From the NCBI GenBank assembly GCA_947646655.1, contig CANSHI010000001.1, positions 1 through 64,000 of the forward strand: a stretch of DNA of 64,000 nt, given 5' to 3'. The notes beneath the pieces are model-generated. The model saw nothing but the letters and a program-made list of their open reading frames with translations. It did not search any database and was not told the DNA's origin. The stretch is from an uncultured bacterium. Lineage in GTDB: Bacteria > Bacillota_I > Bacilli_A > RF39 > UBA660. The translations under genes were made by a program, and so were the position numbers. Below are positions 15,966 to 40,599 of the stretch, piece after piece (the first letter of the stretch is position 1; the number at the start of each line of letters is the position of its first letter).

Positions 15966-17579
15966 TTACTTTATTTGATATGGATTATTACTTGCTCCTG
16001 TGCCTGAAATGAATTCTATATCTGGTCGAAGATAAACACTTGGGCGAACATTATAAGTGCTTGAAATAGTACTACTTAAAACATTACCATTCTTTTCTAT
16101 ACGTACTATTGCATTACTATTTTTTGAACCTGATGTTATGGTCCATTGTATATTAGAATTAAATAACCAGCTATTATTTGCACCGGTTGAATTGTTCGAA
16201 TTACAGTAATAAGCATTTGTATAACAATCATCGTCTACACCATAAGCATACGTATAAATATAATCACTTGGATAAATTAATCCTATGTTAGCACTGGTTT
16301 TGCAACTATGACCTGAATATACAACTGTTCCTCTTTCAAAGCTATAATATTCCCTAGCTCCTAGGCCCGCATTTGTGTTTGTGCCTCCTAAATACCATAT
16401 AACAGGTGCTATTTGATTTTTAGAAATATCAGTTAGTCCAGTTGAAGAATAACTTCCATTTCTATTATAGTAGTCTATGTTTAGGGTCGAGTAAAGACTG
16501 GAATTAGGCCAATTATTTTGTTTATTAGAATCCCAAATTATATTTCCTATCGATGTATTTCTAATAATTTTAATTCTATCTTCCCATTCGTTATTTTCGG
16601 TTTGAACTTTGAAAACTCCTATAATTCTCCATATTTCATCATTAAATTTAACATAATTATTCGGTGTGTTTCCAATGTATCTATAATCTGTTAGGCCTGG
16701 TGTTTGAGAAGTGGTTGGATGTGTAAATGTAAACATCTCTCCTTTATTTCCACTATTATAGTCTGTTATGCTTGAGTCATTGGCTTTAGATATTAGCTTT
16801 TGTGTGGACATTTCTTGCCAAAAGGCATATAGTGTTTGATTATTTCTAATGGTTACTATTGTTTCACAAGTAATTTCTGTGCCTTTTCCAGCTGGTTCAG
16901 TGAACCACCCTCCAAATGTAAATCCCTTTCTAATAGGTACTGGTAAGTCTCAATAAGTTGTATTTTCGATTACTTCTTTAGTTGTATCAGTGTTAATTCC
17001 ATCTTTGAAAGTTATTAGATATTTTGCTAGCCCTTGTTCTAATTTGAAGTGTGTCGAAAAAAAGGCATCTAAATCTGCTGTTTGGTCGATTTCTTCTAGA
17101 TAATTTAATATTATTGTTAGCTTATAATAATATTTTGTTCTTGCTGGAATAACAAGACTGTCTGTTAAAATGTGGGAATTGAAATTTTCACTTCTCGGTA
17201 CATTTTCATTTGTTACTATTTCTTGATATATTCCTTTTTCAGTCTCAGAGTAACTTAGTGTGTATGTCAAAGAGCCTTCTATATAAGTGTTTACTAAATC
17301 TTCAAAGTTTATCTTAGCAAAAGCTTTTAAACTTCCTGTATTCTCTATAGTGAAAGTTTTCTCTGCACTTTCTCCAAAGTTTAATTCTTTATTAAACCCA
17401 TTATTACCGTCACTGAAAGTAAGCGCCATTGTTCCTGTCTCTACTGTTACTTCTTGATTTTTATTTTGGCCTACTTGACCTATGAAATAAGCATATGATC
17501 CGAGGAATCCTACTAACATAAGGGAACATGCTATAATTCCTGTTACTATTCCTTTTTTTATATTTTTATTTTGTTCCAT
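15966..17579 (-). pseudogene. surface protein gene interrupted by an in-frame TGA
   Basis: The two open parts (17579-16950 and 16949-15966) are in the same frame and separated by a single TGA at 16952-16950. Read through, they give a 537-residue protein. It has a SipW-type signal (SYAYFIGQVGQNKN), a TasA-like domain to about 190, and one InlB B-repeat (GFTFGGWFTEP...TLYAFW) at about 210-255. A lectin-like module of the KGEMFTFTH / YVKFNDEIWRIIGVF / GLIYPSDYIYTYAY type follows. The stop replaces the Gly usually found in the TYGD start of the repeat, so GGA to TGA is the simplest cause. The N-terminus and promoter are closest to the gene at 36089-37663. It is translated at most as a 209-residue TasA-like fragment. 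Confidence 0.75.
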
Positions 17580-17614: not shown

Positions 17615-17644
17615 ATTGTAACACCCCCCCCCTAAGTTTGTCAA
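17615..17644 (-). promoter_or_regulatory. promoter with a poly-G spacer (9 G), candidate phase switch
   Basis: On the minus strand TTGACA (17644-17639) and TACAAT (17620-17615) are separated by 18 bp. The spacer contains an uninterrupted run of nine G (17632-17624). Slippage would change the spacer length. The promoter drives the interrupted surface gene 15966-17579. Confidence 0.7.
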
Positions 17645-36088: not shown

Positions 36089-37663
36089 CTATGGTTCTAT
36101 GTCTTTATCTCTATAAGGATTTGAGATTGTTCCATCTCCAATTAAAGTATTTACATATTCGGAAGTTAAGGAAATTACTGGAGCAATGCCACCTGGGCCA
36201 CTCGTACCATAATTGCTACTTAGTCCCCCATCGGTATAGATAAGAAGCATACTAGCAGTCCCATCATAATAACCAGGAGAGAACGACCAATACCATGCCC
36301 CTTTATATAAATAATAATTTTTATTTGCTGTACTGAACTTTCCGCTTCCCCCTGCTACTATCTCATCTGCTGTTACTAGTCCTACTTTCTCTCCTAAATT
36401 TCCATTTCCTTTTTCTACGTCTTCCTTTGTAAATGCATCATTCTTATTCGCACATATAAAGCTAGGCTGTAAAATCTTTACTGCTTCACTCCAGTACGCT
36501 CCTATTCTTGAACTTGAACCATATCCTGTTACATTTTCACCGTACCCTAATCCTGTATCAATATCCAATCCTGTTGCCTCTTTCCCTGGTGTGGTTCTAT
36601 CATTACAAAATATGTTATCACTTATATATTTGTCATATCCTTTATCTGCTATATTCGTCTTATACCAATTTTCCAATTGTATCTTTATATTTGTTTCCGT
36701 CTCGTTTCTTTGCGCTTCTTCTTTACTTGTACTCGCCTCTCCGTTTGCTCCTCCATACATATATCCTACATACTTTGTATCCGAAGTGTTCGCTGTATTC
36801 CATGCTACATTTTGTAATGCTAATCTATTCGTATCATTCGTTCCATTTTCATATGCACTTGTTCCATCATATATTATTCTTAAACTTCCGTCTCCATTTA
36901 CTCGTATTATTCTCCAGTAAAACCCTGCAAACTTCACATAGTTATCATCTACCGCTCCTCTATAATAATAGCTTGTTCCATAGTCGTCTTCCATTGTATA
37001 CAAGGCATTTGCTGTCTCGTTGGTTGTCGCAGGACTTGAAAATACTGGAGTGCCCTCTTTTACATTTTTTCCTAGCTTTGTAAGAGTCTGTTCAGATGTT
37101 ACGGAATCTTCTAGTATTCCTTCTGTAATTTTAAATTGTGTCTCTAACTTAGCTTGTAAATCTGCTGTCTGATCAAAATCTGTATATTTTAAATTTATTA
37201 TGAGCTTATAATATTTTTTTACTCCCGCTGGGATCGTTATTCCACTTACTAGACCTTTGTCTTTCGTCTCTTTTGACACTGGAACATTTTTATTTGAAAC
37301 TATTTCAGTAAACTCTCCATCTTCTGTATCAGACTCTAAAAAAGTATACGTCATAGATCCTTCTAAGTAGGTGTTTAACAAATTCATCCAACTGACACTT
37401 ACTACTCCGTCTTTTGTTCCAGTATTCTCTATTGTAAAAGTTTTCTCTGCACTCTCTCCAAAGTCTAATTCTCTATTGAATCCATTAGTCCCATCACTAA
37501 ATATTAATTCCATTGTTCCAGTTTGTACTTTCACTTCTTGATTTTTATTTTGTCCTACTTGCCCTATGAAAAAAGCATAAGATCCTAAGAATCCTACTAA
37601 TATTAAAGCACATGTGATTAAACCAATTATTACGCCCTTTTTTACATTTTTATTTTTTTCCAT
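36089..37663 (-). CDS. surface protein: TasA-like domain plus lectin-like module, poly-G promoter
   Basis: This is a 524-residue intact member of the family. It has a basic start, a hydrophobic helix and GSYAFFIGQVGQNKN (SipW-type signal, about 1-35). The TasA-like domain runs to about 175 (TGTMELIFSDGTNGFNRELDFG, TFTIENTGTKDG, LIINLKYTDFDQT). A linker (SEQTLTKLGKNVKEG) leads to one lectin-like module (about 215-515: YYYRGAVDDNYVKFAGFYWRI, RVNGDGSLRIIYDG, CNDRTTPGK, GLGYG, CANKNDAF, WSFSP, GIAPVIS). The N-terminus and promoter closely match the interrupted gene at 15966-17579. Expression is probably switched by the G11 tract in its promoter. Confidence 0.82.
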   Translation of the reverse strand: MEKNKNVKKGVIIGLITCALILVGFLGSYAFFIGQVGQNKNQEVKVQTGTMELIFSDGTNGFNRELDFGESAEKTFTIENTGTKDGVVSVSWMNLLNTYLEGSMTYTFLESDTEDGEFTEIVSNKNVPVSKETKDKGLVSGITIPAGVKKYYKLIINLKYTDFDQTADLQAKLETQFKITEGILEDSVTSEQTLTKLGKNVKEGTPVFSSPATTNETANALYTMEDDYGTSYYYRGAVDDNYVKFAGFYWRIIRVNGDGSLRIIYDGTSAYENGTNDTNRLALQNVAWNTANTSDTKYVGYMYGGANGEASTSKEEAQRNETETNIKIQLENWYKTNIADKGYDKYISDNIFCNDRTTPGKEATGLDIDTGLGYGENVTGYGSSSRIGAYWSEAVKILQPSFICANKNDAFTKEDVEKGNGNLGEKVGLVTADEIVAGGSGKFSTANKNYYLYKGAWYWSFSPGYYDGTASMLLIYTDGGLSSNYGTSGPGGIAPVISLTSEYVNTLIGDGTISNPYRDKDIEP

Positions 37664-37699: not shown

Positions 37700-37731
37700 A
37701 TTATACCACCCCCCCCCCCGGGTGTTGTCAA
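37700..37731 (-). promoter_or_regulatory. promoter with a poly-G spacer (11 G), candidate phase switch
   Basis: On the minus strand TTGACA (37731-37726) and TATAAT (37705-37700) are both perfect. They are separated by 20 bp that include 11 consecutive G (37719-37709). Loss of three G would give the optimal 17-bp spacing. The promoter serves surface gene 36089-37663. Confidence 0.8.
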
Positions 37732-37796: not shown

Positions 37797-37818
37797 GAAA
37801 AAAGGAGATATCCTCCTT
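37797..37818 (-). terminator. terminator of the peptide-export operon
   Basis: AAGGAG-N5-CTCCTT followed by T-run on the minus strand, starting at the stop codon of the last peptide gene. Confidence 0.8.
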
Positions 37819-37985
37819 CAGTTGCAATAGTTTTTGTTTTTAATCCTGCTGATAGACGATCCTATCGTTCTTCCTAAATCGACTAATACTGTTACTAGCC
37901 TCGCAATTGAATTAAAAAGTGTTGTGCTTATTCCTTTGGAAGCACCTCCTATTACTCTTATTAGTTCTTCATTAGATAATACCAT
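37818..37985 (-). CDS. double-glycine-leader peptide B (class II bacteriocin-like)
   Basis: This is a 55-residue peptide. The start ATG follows AAGAAAGGAAAATTTAC. The leader MVLSNEELIRVIGG is a standard double-glycine leader (L, E-L, I/V then GG). It predicts a 41-residue mature peptide that starts ASKGIS, has an amphipathic helix (SIARLVTVLVDLGRTIGSSI) and a basic end with one Cys (KNKNYCN). It lies 18 bases after peptide A and ends the operon. A two-peptide (class IIb) bacteriocin is the best guess. A signalling peptide is possible. Confidence 0.7.
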   Translation of the reverse strand: MVLSNEELIRVIGGASKGISTTLFNSIARLVTVLVDLGRTIGSSISRIKNKNYCN

Positions 37986-38003: not shown

Positions 38004-38162
38004 TTATTTTATTTTTCGCATATTACATTTAGTCGGGTTTAAATAGCCATCGATAAATCCTGCGATTAGAGATACCAAAGCTCCAATGCCTGCTACAAGT
38101 CCATAAACCCAGCCTGATCCTCCACCTTGGATGTTTGCAAGCTCATTTTCTGTTAATTTCAT
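38004..38162 (-). CDS. double-glycine-leader peptide A (class II bacteriocin-like)
   Basis: This is a 52-residue peptide whose ATG follows AGAAAGGATGGAACAT. It overlaps the end of the transporter gene by 20 bp. The leader MKLTENELANIQGG is a canonical double-glycine leader. The mature part of 38 residues has a W-V-Y start, then GLVAGIGALVSLIAGFIDGY with GxxxG spacing typical of class IIb helix-helix partners, and a basic tail with one Cys (PTKCNMRKIK). The C39 transporter immediately upstream would cleave after GG and export it. Confidence 0.75.
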   Translation of the reverse strand: MKLTENELANIQGGGSGWVYGLVAGIGALVSLIAGFIDGYLNPTKCNMRKIK

Positions 38163-40185
38163 ATGTTCCATCCTTTCTAAAGTTTACAATAGTTTTAAAC
38201 GTTTTTTCTTTGTTGCGGTGCGTGATGTAGATTAAAGACATATTTTCGATCGATAATAGATTTTTAAGAATAGATTCTTCCATATTTTCATTAACACTGG
38301 ACAAAGTCTCATCGATAATTAGTATTTGAGGTTTTTTGTAGAGCGCTCTTGCTAAGATAAGTCGAGCTCGCTCTCCGCCTGACAGATTGGATGCACCCTC
38401 TAGTACTGTGGTATGTTCTTTATCTCTACGTTTATTTATAACTTCATCTAATAATGTAATATTAGAAATATATTGAAATCTATCCATATCATAGTCATCT
38501 AAAGTGACATTTTCTAAAATCGATTTTCTAAATATTTTTTCTTCTTGACCTATGTATATCAAATAAGACCTTAAAGAATCGATTGAAATGTCCTTAATGT
38601 TTTTATCATTGAGGGTTATATACCCTTCGTATTTATCTAATAGACCACATAGGCATTTTACTAAAGTACTCTTTCCTATTCCACTTGGGCCTTTGATTAA
38701 AATCTTCTCGCCTTTTTTAAATTGGAAATTAAAGTTTCTAAGTTGATAATGTATTCGATCATATGAGAACGATAAGCTTTTAATTTTAAGATCTGTAAAA
38801 GGTTTATTGTAATTTGGGATAATTCTTTCTTCTCGGACATCATTAAATTCACATATGTTTCTGAATATAGCTTTTCCTTTGAGAAAATATTCGAAGGTAG
38901 TAGTTAAACCTTCAAACGAGAGGAAAAATAAGGAAAATATAGATTCATATGTTATGAGGTCTAAGAAAGTAAATGATTCGCTGATACTTAAATAGCCAAC
39001 TAAACCGATACATAAAATACCAATGTCAAATAATAAAGTTTTAATAAATTTTATACGATGATTAGTTGAATTACTATTTAGACGAACATTTGTATAATTT
39101 TTAAGGGTATCTGTTATGTATTTTAAAAAGAAATTTGTGGCATTTAAATTTTTGATACTTTCTAAACCGTCTAAGTATTCAACTAGTGTTCCCGAATAAT
39201 CATTGTATGTTTTCAAACATTTTTTCTCATTTTTATATAAAATATTTTGTGTAAAAATTGTAATAAAGGTGTATAATATTAGTATAGTCGAATATATGAA
39301 TGTCAATTTTGTAGACAGTATAAGTAAAATCGGATACAAAATGACGATTGTCAATAGATCTAAACTATTGATTATGAAAAGTCTTATGAGTAAGTCTTTT
39401 ATAAAAGTCATATCTTCGATTTTTTTTACTATTTCACCGACTCGTTTATTATGTAAATATTTAATCGGTAATTTAAAAATATGAGATGTAAAATTTTTTA
39501 GAGACTCATCATCAATATATTTTATAACTTTTTCTAACACATTTTCTTTAAAGAGAGTCATGCTGTTGGCAAAAATTCGGCATAAAATTAATACACACGT
39601 TATGAAAATAGGACTTGCTATTTTTAAATTTAAAAGTTTTAGTTGAAAACTAGTTATTAAATTTAATAATAAAATTAATATACAAGAAAATGCAACAATG
39701 ACTATACTGATCTTTTTCTCTTTGATTAGAGGAAAAAATGTTTTGATCAATGATTTACTTTTTTTGAATTTAGGAATTTCACCACGAGAAGTAACAACGA
39801 TCGTGTTTTTTGTAAAAATTTTTCTAAATTCCTCTACAGAATATATTTTTTTACCGTATTCGGGATCCATGGTTAGGATAGTATTTTCTTTTATTTCATA
39901 TATGACAAGAAAATGTTCATAACCATTTTTTAATATATGACCTATTATAGGAAGCTTATTTTTATCAATTTTGTCTAAAGAGATCTTTAAACCATAAGCA
40001 TCAAACCCATATTTTTTTAAGGCTTCTACTAGATTTAGAGCGGATGTTCCTGATGTCGTTGTATTTGTATCTTCTAAAACCAATTCGAGAGGTACATAGC
40101 CGTCATAAAAAGATACAATACTTTGAATACACTTAGCTCCGCATGAAGAAATGTCATCTTGGATAAATATGTCTTTATTTTTCAT
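38143..40185 (-). CDS. peptidase-C39 ABC transporter for double-glycine peptides
   Basis: This 680-residue export ATPase is of the LagD/ComA/NukT type. The N-terminal C39 peptidase has Cys15 in SSCGAKC, His91 in GYEHFLV and Asp107 in MDPEYG. Six membrane helices lie between about 155 and 430. The ATPase has a Walker A near 498-505 (GPSGIGKST), LSGGERARLILARAL, and ILIIDETLSS. It cleaves leaders after GG and exports the peptides. The ATG follows GAGGTGGTGATTTT. No HlyD-like accessory gene is present, and no immunity gene is recognisable downstream. Confidence 0.93.
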   Translation of the reverse strand: MKNKDIFIQDDISSCGAKCIQSIVSFYDGYVPLELVLEDTNTTTSGTSALNLVEALKKYGFDAYGLKISLDKIDKNKLPIIGHILKNGYEHFLVIYEIKENTILTMDPEYGKKIYSVEEFRKIFTKNTIVVTSRGEIPKFKKSKSLIKTFFPLIKEKKISIVIVAFSCILILLLNLITSFQLKLLNLKIASPIFITCVLILCRIFANSMTLFKENVLEKVIKYIDDESLKNFTSHIFKLPIKYLHNKRVGEIVKKIEDMTFIKDLLIRLFIINSLDLLTIVILYPILLILSTKLTFIYSTILILYTFITIFTQNILYKNEKKCLKTYNDYSGTLVEYLDGLESIKNLNATNFFLKYITDTLKNYTNVRLNSNSTNHRIKFIKTLLFDIGILCIGLVGYLSISESFTFLDLITYESIFSLFFLSFEGLTTTFEYFLKGKAIFRNICEFNDVREERIIPNYNKPFTDLKIKSLSFSYDRIHYQLRNFNFQFKKGEKILIKGPSGIGKSTLVKCLCGLLDKYEGYITLNDKNIKDISIDSLRSYLIYIGQEEKIFRKSILENVTLDDYDMDRFQYISNITLLDEVINKRRDKEHTTVLEGASNLSGGERARLILARALYKKPQILIIDETLSSVNENMEESILKNLLSIENMSLIYITHRNKEKTFKTIVNFRKDGTYEINRK

Positions 40186-40204
40186 AAAATCACCACCTCA
40201 ATAA

Positions 40205-40258
40205 TTAAAAGAATATTGTTACTAATAATTTAATAATTTTCATTACTTTGAAAAACAT
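40205..40258 (-). CDS. 17-residue cationic hydrophobic peptide 2
   Basis: MFFKVMKIIKLLVTIFF, preceded by the strong site AAAAGGAGGTAAATAAA. It aligns without gaps with peptide 1 (9 of 17 identical, the rest mostly conservative). Lysines at 4, 7 and 10 lie on one helical face and the rest is hydrophobic. There is no leader. It lies 19 bases upstream of the transporter start. It could be a leaderless membrane-active or signalling peptide. Too short for homology to decide. Confidence 0.6.
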   Translation of the reverse strand: MFFKVMKIIKLLVTIFF

Positions 40259-40295
40259 TTTATTTACCTCCTTTTCTAGATTGCTTTATTTCTTA

Positions 40296-40349
40296 TTAGA
40301 AGAAAAACATTACGATATATTTAACAATTTTTATAATTTTGTAAAACAT
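40296..40349 (-). CDS. 17-residue cationic hydrophobic peptide 1
   Basis: MFYKIIKIVKYIVMFFF, preceded by GGAAAGGAGATG. It is the first gene after the shared promoter element and is followed by TAATAA. Its length, Lys spacing and FF end are the same as in peptide 2, 37 bp downstream. The conserved pattern with different codons argues that both are translated genes rather than chance frames. Confidence 0.6.
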   Translation of the reverse strand: MFYKIIKIVKYIVMFFF

Positions 40350-40386
40350 ATTAATTACATCTCCTTTCCTTACCTCTCTACTCATT

Positions 40387-40416
40387 ATTATACCGGACAG
40401 ATTTTATTTTTCTCAT
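40387..40416 (-). promoter_or_regulatory. promoter-like element of the peptide-export operon, shared with recA
   Basis: On the minus strand it reads ATGAGAAAAAT, eight bases, then TCCGGTATAAT. It is 27/30 identical to 3152-3181 upstream of recA. The TATAAT lies about 38 bp before the start of the first 17-residue peptide. No standard -35 box is present. Confidence 0.6.
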
Positions 40417-40574
40417 GCATTTTAAAAAAAAGTGGCATTTGTGCATACAAATGTACTTAAACAAGATACTTATAATATTTTGACAAAAAACTAAATTTTA
40501 AAGTTTGTATTATTGAACACTTTTATTTCTTTTATTTGACAAAATGAGTAATTGGCAAATAACTTGTTATACAC

Positions 40575-40599
40575 AAAAAAACACTCCTCTTGGGAGTGT
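40575..40599 (-). terminator. terminator of cotZ
   Basis: ACACTCC / GGAGTGT stem followed by seven T on the minus strand. Confidence 0.85.

Follow-up and report, generated by a model that had tools for sequence, protein, structure and literature searches.

What two reading frames of only 17 codons are doing at the head of a peptide-export locus, and whether they are genes at all, is the question raised by the 64,000-nucleotide stretch of DNA analyzed here (the window). Both frames lie on the minus strand. The first, pepA (40296..40349), starts with ATG at 40349, ends with TAA at 40296 and reads ATG TTT TAC AAA ... TTC TAA, encoding the 17-residue peptide MFYKIIKIVKYIVMFFF. The second, pepB (40205..40258; ATG 40258, TAA 40205), reads ATG TTT TTC AAA ... 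TTT TAA and encodes MFFKVMKIIKLLVTIFF, also 17 aa. A Shine-Dalgarno (SD) sequence stands before each: AAAGGAG for pepA (40361..40367, minus), with a slightly long spacer, and AAAAGGAGG for pepB (40267..40275, minus). The original prediction had described the two frames, their strong ribosome sites and the features shared by the peptides, namely length, Lys at positions 4, 7 and 10 and an FF end, and all of these could be read directly from the sequence and its translations. The 64-kb window holds 190 frames of 15-19 aa that start with ATG; an AGGAG/GGAGG site precedes three of them, two of which are pepA and pepB.

The next gene encodes a C39 peptidase/ABC exporter of 680 aa (38143..40185, minus); Pfam matches to C39, ABC_membrane and ABC_tran confirmed the exporter that had been predicted downstream of the frames. 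Its Cys15, His91 and Asp107 align with the C39 catalytic positions, and the Asp107 position is Asn in two relatives (L014 and L015). The stop codon of pepB is 19 nt from the exporter start codon, and the exporter has an SD of its own, GAGGTGGTG (40191..40199, minus). Upstream of pepA, there is a putative promoter-like stretch recognized by consensus match only, GAGAAAAAT-N10-CGGTATAAT (40387..40414, minus), whose position is matched and whose sequence is largely matched in the genus loci. The upstream CotZ-like gene ends in a terminator-like hairpin (40581-40599); therefore, pepA and pepB open a new transcription unit. On the basis of this hairpin and the promoter-like stretch (40414-40387) before them and the exporter after them, the two frames are the first cistrons of the export operon, as had been claimed. 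The CotZ-like gene directly upstream in the window genome (40630-41055, minus) encodes a spore coat protein, and in several relatives a SpoIIIAH-like gene, by our own reading of the sequence, is divergently upstream of the operon. A palindrome, CATTTGTATGCACAAATG, lies immediately before the promoter (40436-40453, minus); it is a candidate operator and was not seen at the corresponding place in relatives.

Nine congeneric genomes, including that of the window, were compared, and eight of them carry the exporter. One contig (L012) begins inside the exporter and hence was outside the upstream comparison. Frames of the 17-mer type precede the exporter in all six relatives with readable upstream DNA, as well as in the window. 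The peptides of the relatives are MRLITLVRIIVRYMWLFF (L009), MKFFTILKIIGLILYKFF and MFSKLVRILGFILYTFF (both L010), MGLTLIIKIIKFVLFFI (L011), MTKWRVILRFLSFLLSFY (L013), MRFYAILKFIKFLLMFI (L014) and MKIYAILKFIKFLLMFI (L015). Two of the seven readable loci have two peptides and the rest have one, and each tandem copy has its own SD. Of the conserved pair expected upstream of C39 exporters, the frames themselves were recovered throughout the readable loci of the genus, and the pairing was not the rule. The peptides share a design of 17-18 residues: central K/R in a hydrophobic run, an aromatic or Ile end, and no acidic residue. Asp, Glu, Asn, Gln, His, Pro and Cys account for none of the 156 residues in the genus peptides, an absence also found in 4 of 189 control frames. 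Sequence identity among the 17-mers is low, but the pattern of hydropathy and K/R is kept, which favours a physical constraint by the membrane.

Each peptide was scored on a profile built without its own locus. Among 5000 composition shuffles, 0, 71, 170, 2, 30, 8, 82, 0 and 0 reached the score of the nine peptides, respectively. The BLOSUM score per residue pair was 1.72 in frame 0, against -0.97 and -0.08 in the shifted frames. Different codons were used in 92 of the 180 identical residue pairs of the genus peptides, and these pair counts are not independent, as the sequences are related. Such a synonymous-codon comparison in relatives had been proposed along with the original prediction, as had a search of relatives, in which all six readable congeners proved to have the frames. 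On the full genus profile, the pair scored 44.5 and 40.4, and all other small frames of the window scored 11.4 or less. Searching the nine genus genomes with the profile gave nine places with E < 0.01, all before this exporter; elsewhere in these genomes there were no further copies at E < 0.1, the next best being 0.139. Because the profile was built from the same peptides, this search shows the absence of further copies, and across the nine genomes the linkage of the 17-mers to this operon is exclusive. Synonymous codons, frame contrast and leave-one-out profiles support, as far as sequence can tell, a translated family. Chance frames in the 5' leader would be a natural thought for such short frames in an AT-rich genome, but the rarity of the SD (3/190), the conservation in the genus, the shuffles and the frame contrast strongly disfavour this explanation, which we find scarcely credible. 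pepA and pepB are probably tiny, unannotated genes heading a peptide-export operon, and the claim that they are too short for annotation yet true genes is borne out by their conservation within the genus.

How far does this association reach? The exporter is present in 291 of 386 family genomes, covering 129 of 150 genera. In a sample of the order, 50 of 60 genomes carry it, and those listed are all members of this one family. No 17-mer-like frame was found at the 115 loci of the family outside the genus with a usable exporter start; an SD-preceded small frame lies near the exporter at two of them, neither resembling the 17-mers. These loci retain the exporter, the Gly-Gly peptides and the promoter. 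The original prediction had taken loss of the frames from an otherwise conserved operon as evidence against it; this is the situation outside the genus (0/115), and inside it the frames are kept (6/6). In a maximum-likelihood tree, the genus exporters fall on one side of a branch with a support of 100/100, and therefore one gain of the 17-mers explains the data; judged from these sequences, the 17-mers look like a single genus-level gain. Genome G002 also has a second, divergent C39 exporter (L016, 29% identity), which is accompanied by P1/P2-type peptides of its own and lacks a 17-mer. The family-wide form of the promoter-like element is AAAGGAAAT...TAATA. Outside the genus, the AAAAGGAAAT...TAATA element is conserved, in most cases 45-55 nt upstream of the start of the exporter, and it resembles a SigH-type -35 region; it may mark a shared regulon.

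The operon contains two further small genes, which the original prediction had overlooked. P1, MKLTENELANIQGG|GSGWVYGLVAGIGALVSLIAGFIDGYLNPTKCNMRKIK (38004..38162, minus), overlaps the exporter end and is followed by P2, MVLSNEELIRVIGG|ASKGISTTLFNSIARLVTVLVDLGRTIGSSISRIKNKNYCN (37818..37985, minus). Both are double-glycine precursors with leaders ending in Gly-Gly and with GxxxG-like motifs, P2 carries a conserved GRxxGSS-like motif, and each usually has a single Cys near the C terminus (window and loci L009-L079). Against the NCBIfam model TIGR03949 (class IIb bacteriocin, lactobin A/cerein 7B family), P1 scored 26.3 bits, above the cut-off of 21.5 bits. P2 matched none of the named families at its cut-off and is conserved across the family. 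Both peptides are present at every genus locus, and profile searches recovered counterparts at almost every exporter locus in the family. P1 and P2 are likely the substrates of the exporter, and the operon of C39 exporter, P1 and P2 would make and export a class IIb-like two-peptide product with putative antimicrobial activity. In one part of the family, a third double-glycine peptide, lacking the C-terminal Cys of P1 and P2, lies before P1 (L019, L031, L033, L047, L049, L052, L053, L058, L076 and L079). In the genus relatives, P2 is followed by cca, from which it is separated in the window by two TasA-like genes. A G-tract of 11 (37709-37719) separates the TTGACA -35 from the -10 in the promoter of 36089-37663 (minus), and a G-tract of 9 (17624-17632) does so in that of 16950-17579 (minus). 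These promoters, with TATAAT/TACAAT as the -10, precede TasA/camelysin-like surface protein genes, and both are candidates for phase variation.

A class IIb locus comprises at least five genes, including a dedicated immunity gene and an accessory gene (PMC6957408). The present operon resembles those of lactococcin G, carnobacteriocin XY and the lactobin A/cerein 7B family in its dedicated C39 ABC exporter and in two small, adjacent double-glycine precursors with GxxxG-like motifs, of which P1 passes TIGR03949. It differs from them in that this genus has neither an accessory gene nor a recognized immunity gene, in the one Cys near the C terminus of P1 and of P2, in its nearly family-wide occurrence, and in the 17-mers, which have no counterpart there. 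In most genera, the exporter and P1 are separated by an accessory frame of ~135 residues with a single hydrophobic stretch at its N terminus; the window's genus and several other genera lack this frame. The 17-mers as a general stand-in for this protein were considered and rejected, since roughly a dozen loci, those of the sister clade among them, have neither the accessory gene nor 17-mers. In that clade (L061 and L066-L069), the exporter, P1 and P2 are present and the accessory gene and 17-mer are both absent; thus, neither function is obligatory there. At L018 and L023, P2 is followed by a leaderless frame of ~50 residues that contains a hydrophobic stretch and an LG[RK]IVGT motif similar to that of P2; its product is possibly an immunity protein or a P2 decoy in that lineage.

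We believe that the 17-mers are membrane microproteins that serve the producer itself, by protecting it or as an accessory to the exporter, and give this reading a probability of about 0.45. pepA and pepB would be translated into cationic hydrophobic peptides of 17 residues that stay with the producer at its cytoplasmic membrane, where the aromatic end would lie within the bilayer and the K/R residues would face the cytoplasm. There, they may shield the cell against P1 and P2 or assist the exporter, as a genus-specific addition to the conserved operon. Two copies with separate SDs in two lineages suit a product that is needed in quantity, and the constraint on residue pattern and the exclusive linkage to this operon also speak for this reading. 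From the promoter to the end of P2, no immunity candidate gene other than the 17-mers was recognized, and class IIb clusters normally have a dedicated immunity protein (PMC6957408). This absence and the class IIb match of P1 favour, by analogy, the immunity reading. Of the three functions offered in the original prediction, the missing immunity or regulatory element is the best and is still putative. Some immunity proteins are small and cross the membrane once, among them CbnZ of carnobacteriocin XY (42 aa), and those named range from 42 to 154 aa (PMC6957408). CbnZ resembles the 17-mers as a short hydrophobic protein in a two-peptide operon; the 17-mers, whose role in immunity is putative, differ in length (17 against 42 aa) and precede the exporter instead of following the precursors. 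Against the immunity reading, 17 residues are far below 42-154 aa and barely span the membrane. Against action in the producer membrane more generally, the sister clade does without 17-mers, and five of the nine peptides show no significant helical amphipathicity. We offer only doubtfully the strongest form of the idea, that no smaller immunity (or exporter-accessory) proteins are known than the 17-mers, which would be single-helix, genus-specific and protective of producers against a membrane-acting two-peptide product found across an uncultured Bacilli family.

Translation of the frames may also matter in cis. As translated leaders, they would gate or deliver exporter translation through coupling, and possibly stalling, with the peptide as a by-product. 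At every locus, 8-20 nt separate the end of the last 17-mer from the start of the exporter. The 17-mer also sits where the exporter's own SD lies elsewhere in the family; outside the genus, the exporter is behind a GAAGGGAGG site, with an AAGGAA-type element typically 45-55 nt before its start. The exporter SD is absent in L014 and weak or overlapping in L010, L013 and L015, and therefore the exporter probably depends on re-initiation there, but it is kept in the window, L009 and L011. No special RNA folding was found in eight leader segments (z from -1.07 to +1.20), so the mechanism would be coupling and not a hairpin switch. Likewise, no switchable structure of the attenuator kind was seen before the exporter (z never below -1.1), and an Rfam search of 36-42 kb of the window gave no match. 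Resistance-gene leader peptides, such as the Erm leaders, are comparable as short frames with a strong SD directly before a gene. At the 17-mers, however, no switching hairpin was found, copies occur in tandem, and a residue pattern is constrained while identities vary. Stalling peptides need set residues, and coupling needs no two tandem copies. We regard a translated leader as the main rival reading, a tentative but real possibility, and it and a product acting in the producer membrane can both be true together.

Two further proposals for the peptides were less successful. Leaderless bacteriocins and phenol-soluble modulins are leaderless cationic peptides beside an ABC exporter. The 17-mers, being cationic, hydrophobic, leaderless and adjacent to an exporter, could similarly be secreted membrane-active peptides, a third and fourth component of the product that leaves through this or another ABC exporter; the helical moment is reached by few shuffles in four of nine peptides (WINa, L010b, L011 and WINb). 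Yet they are shorter and more hydrophobic than those peptides, with almost no polar uncharged residue, and the exporter beside them contains a C39 domain and is served by Gly-Gly precursors in the operon. A leader ending in Gly-Gly, Gly-Ala or Gly-Ser is absent in all nine 17-mers. Without Gly-Gly they are not ordinary C39 substrates, so C39-dependent export is unlikely, the original proposal of leaderless membrane-active peptides is weakened, and secretion as a whole is improbable. A signalling role as SHP/LCP-type peptides, sensed by a receptor in the cytoplasm, is more improbable still. The leaderless communication peptides that work with RopB are likewise very short, leaderless and hydrophobic (PMC10518010), but the 17-mers are linked to an exporter and no regulator gene is shared next to the operon at the genus loci. 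A search for the Rgg C-terminal family (TIGR01716), the receptor family covered, gave no match in the window's genome (~93% complete), with a positive control, which weakens the original signalling proposal. Both the secreted component and the pheromone are less likely than a membrane product or a translated leader. In the literature, only analogues of such 17-residue peptides were found.

Overall, the sequence evidence indicates that this class IIb-like export operon begins with two conserved micropeptide genes, pepA and pepB, that are specific to the genus. Peptides as simple as the 17-mers can be synthesized and assayed against synthetic P1 and P2. Among the aligned genus relatives, identity to the exporter of the window ranges from 56% down to 35-36%, and genes of 17 codons can be kept across lineages that far apart. 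The analysis also uncovers a two-peptide export system in most of an uncultured Bacilli family, in which one precursor matches the class IIb model and the other matches none, with putative helper genes in this genus that are too small for annotation.
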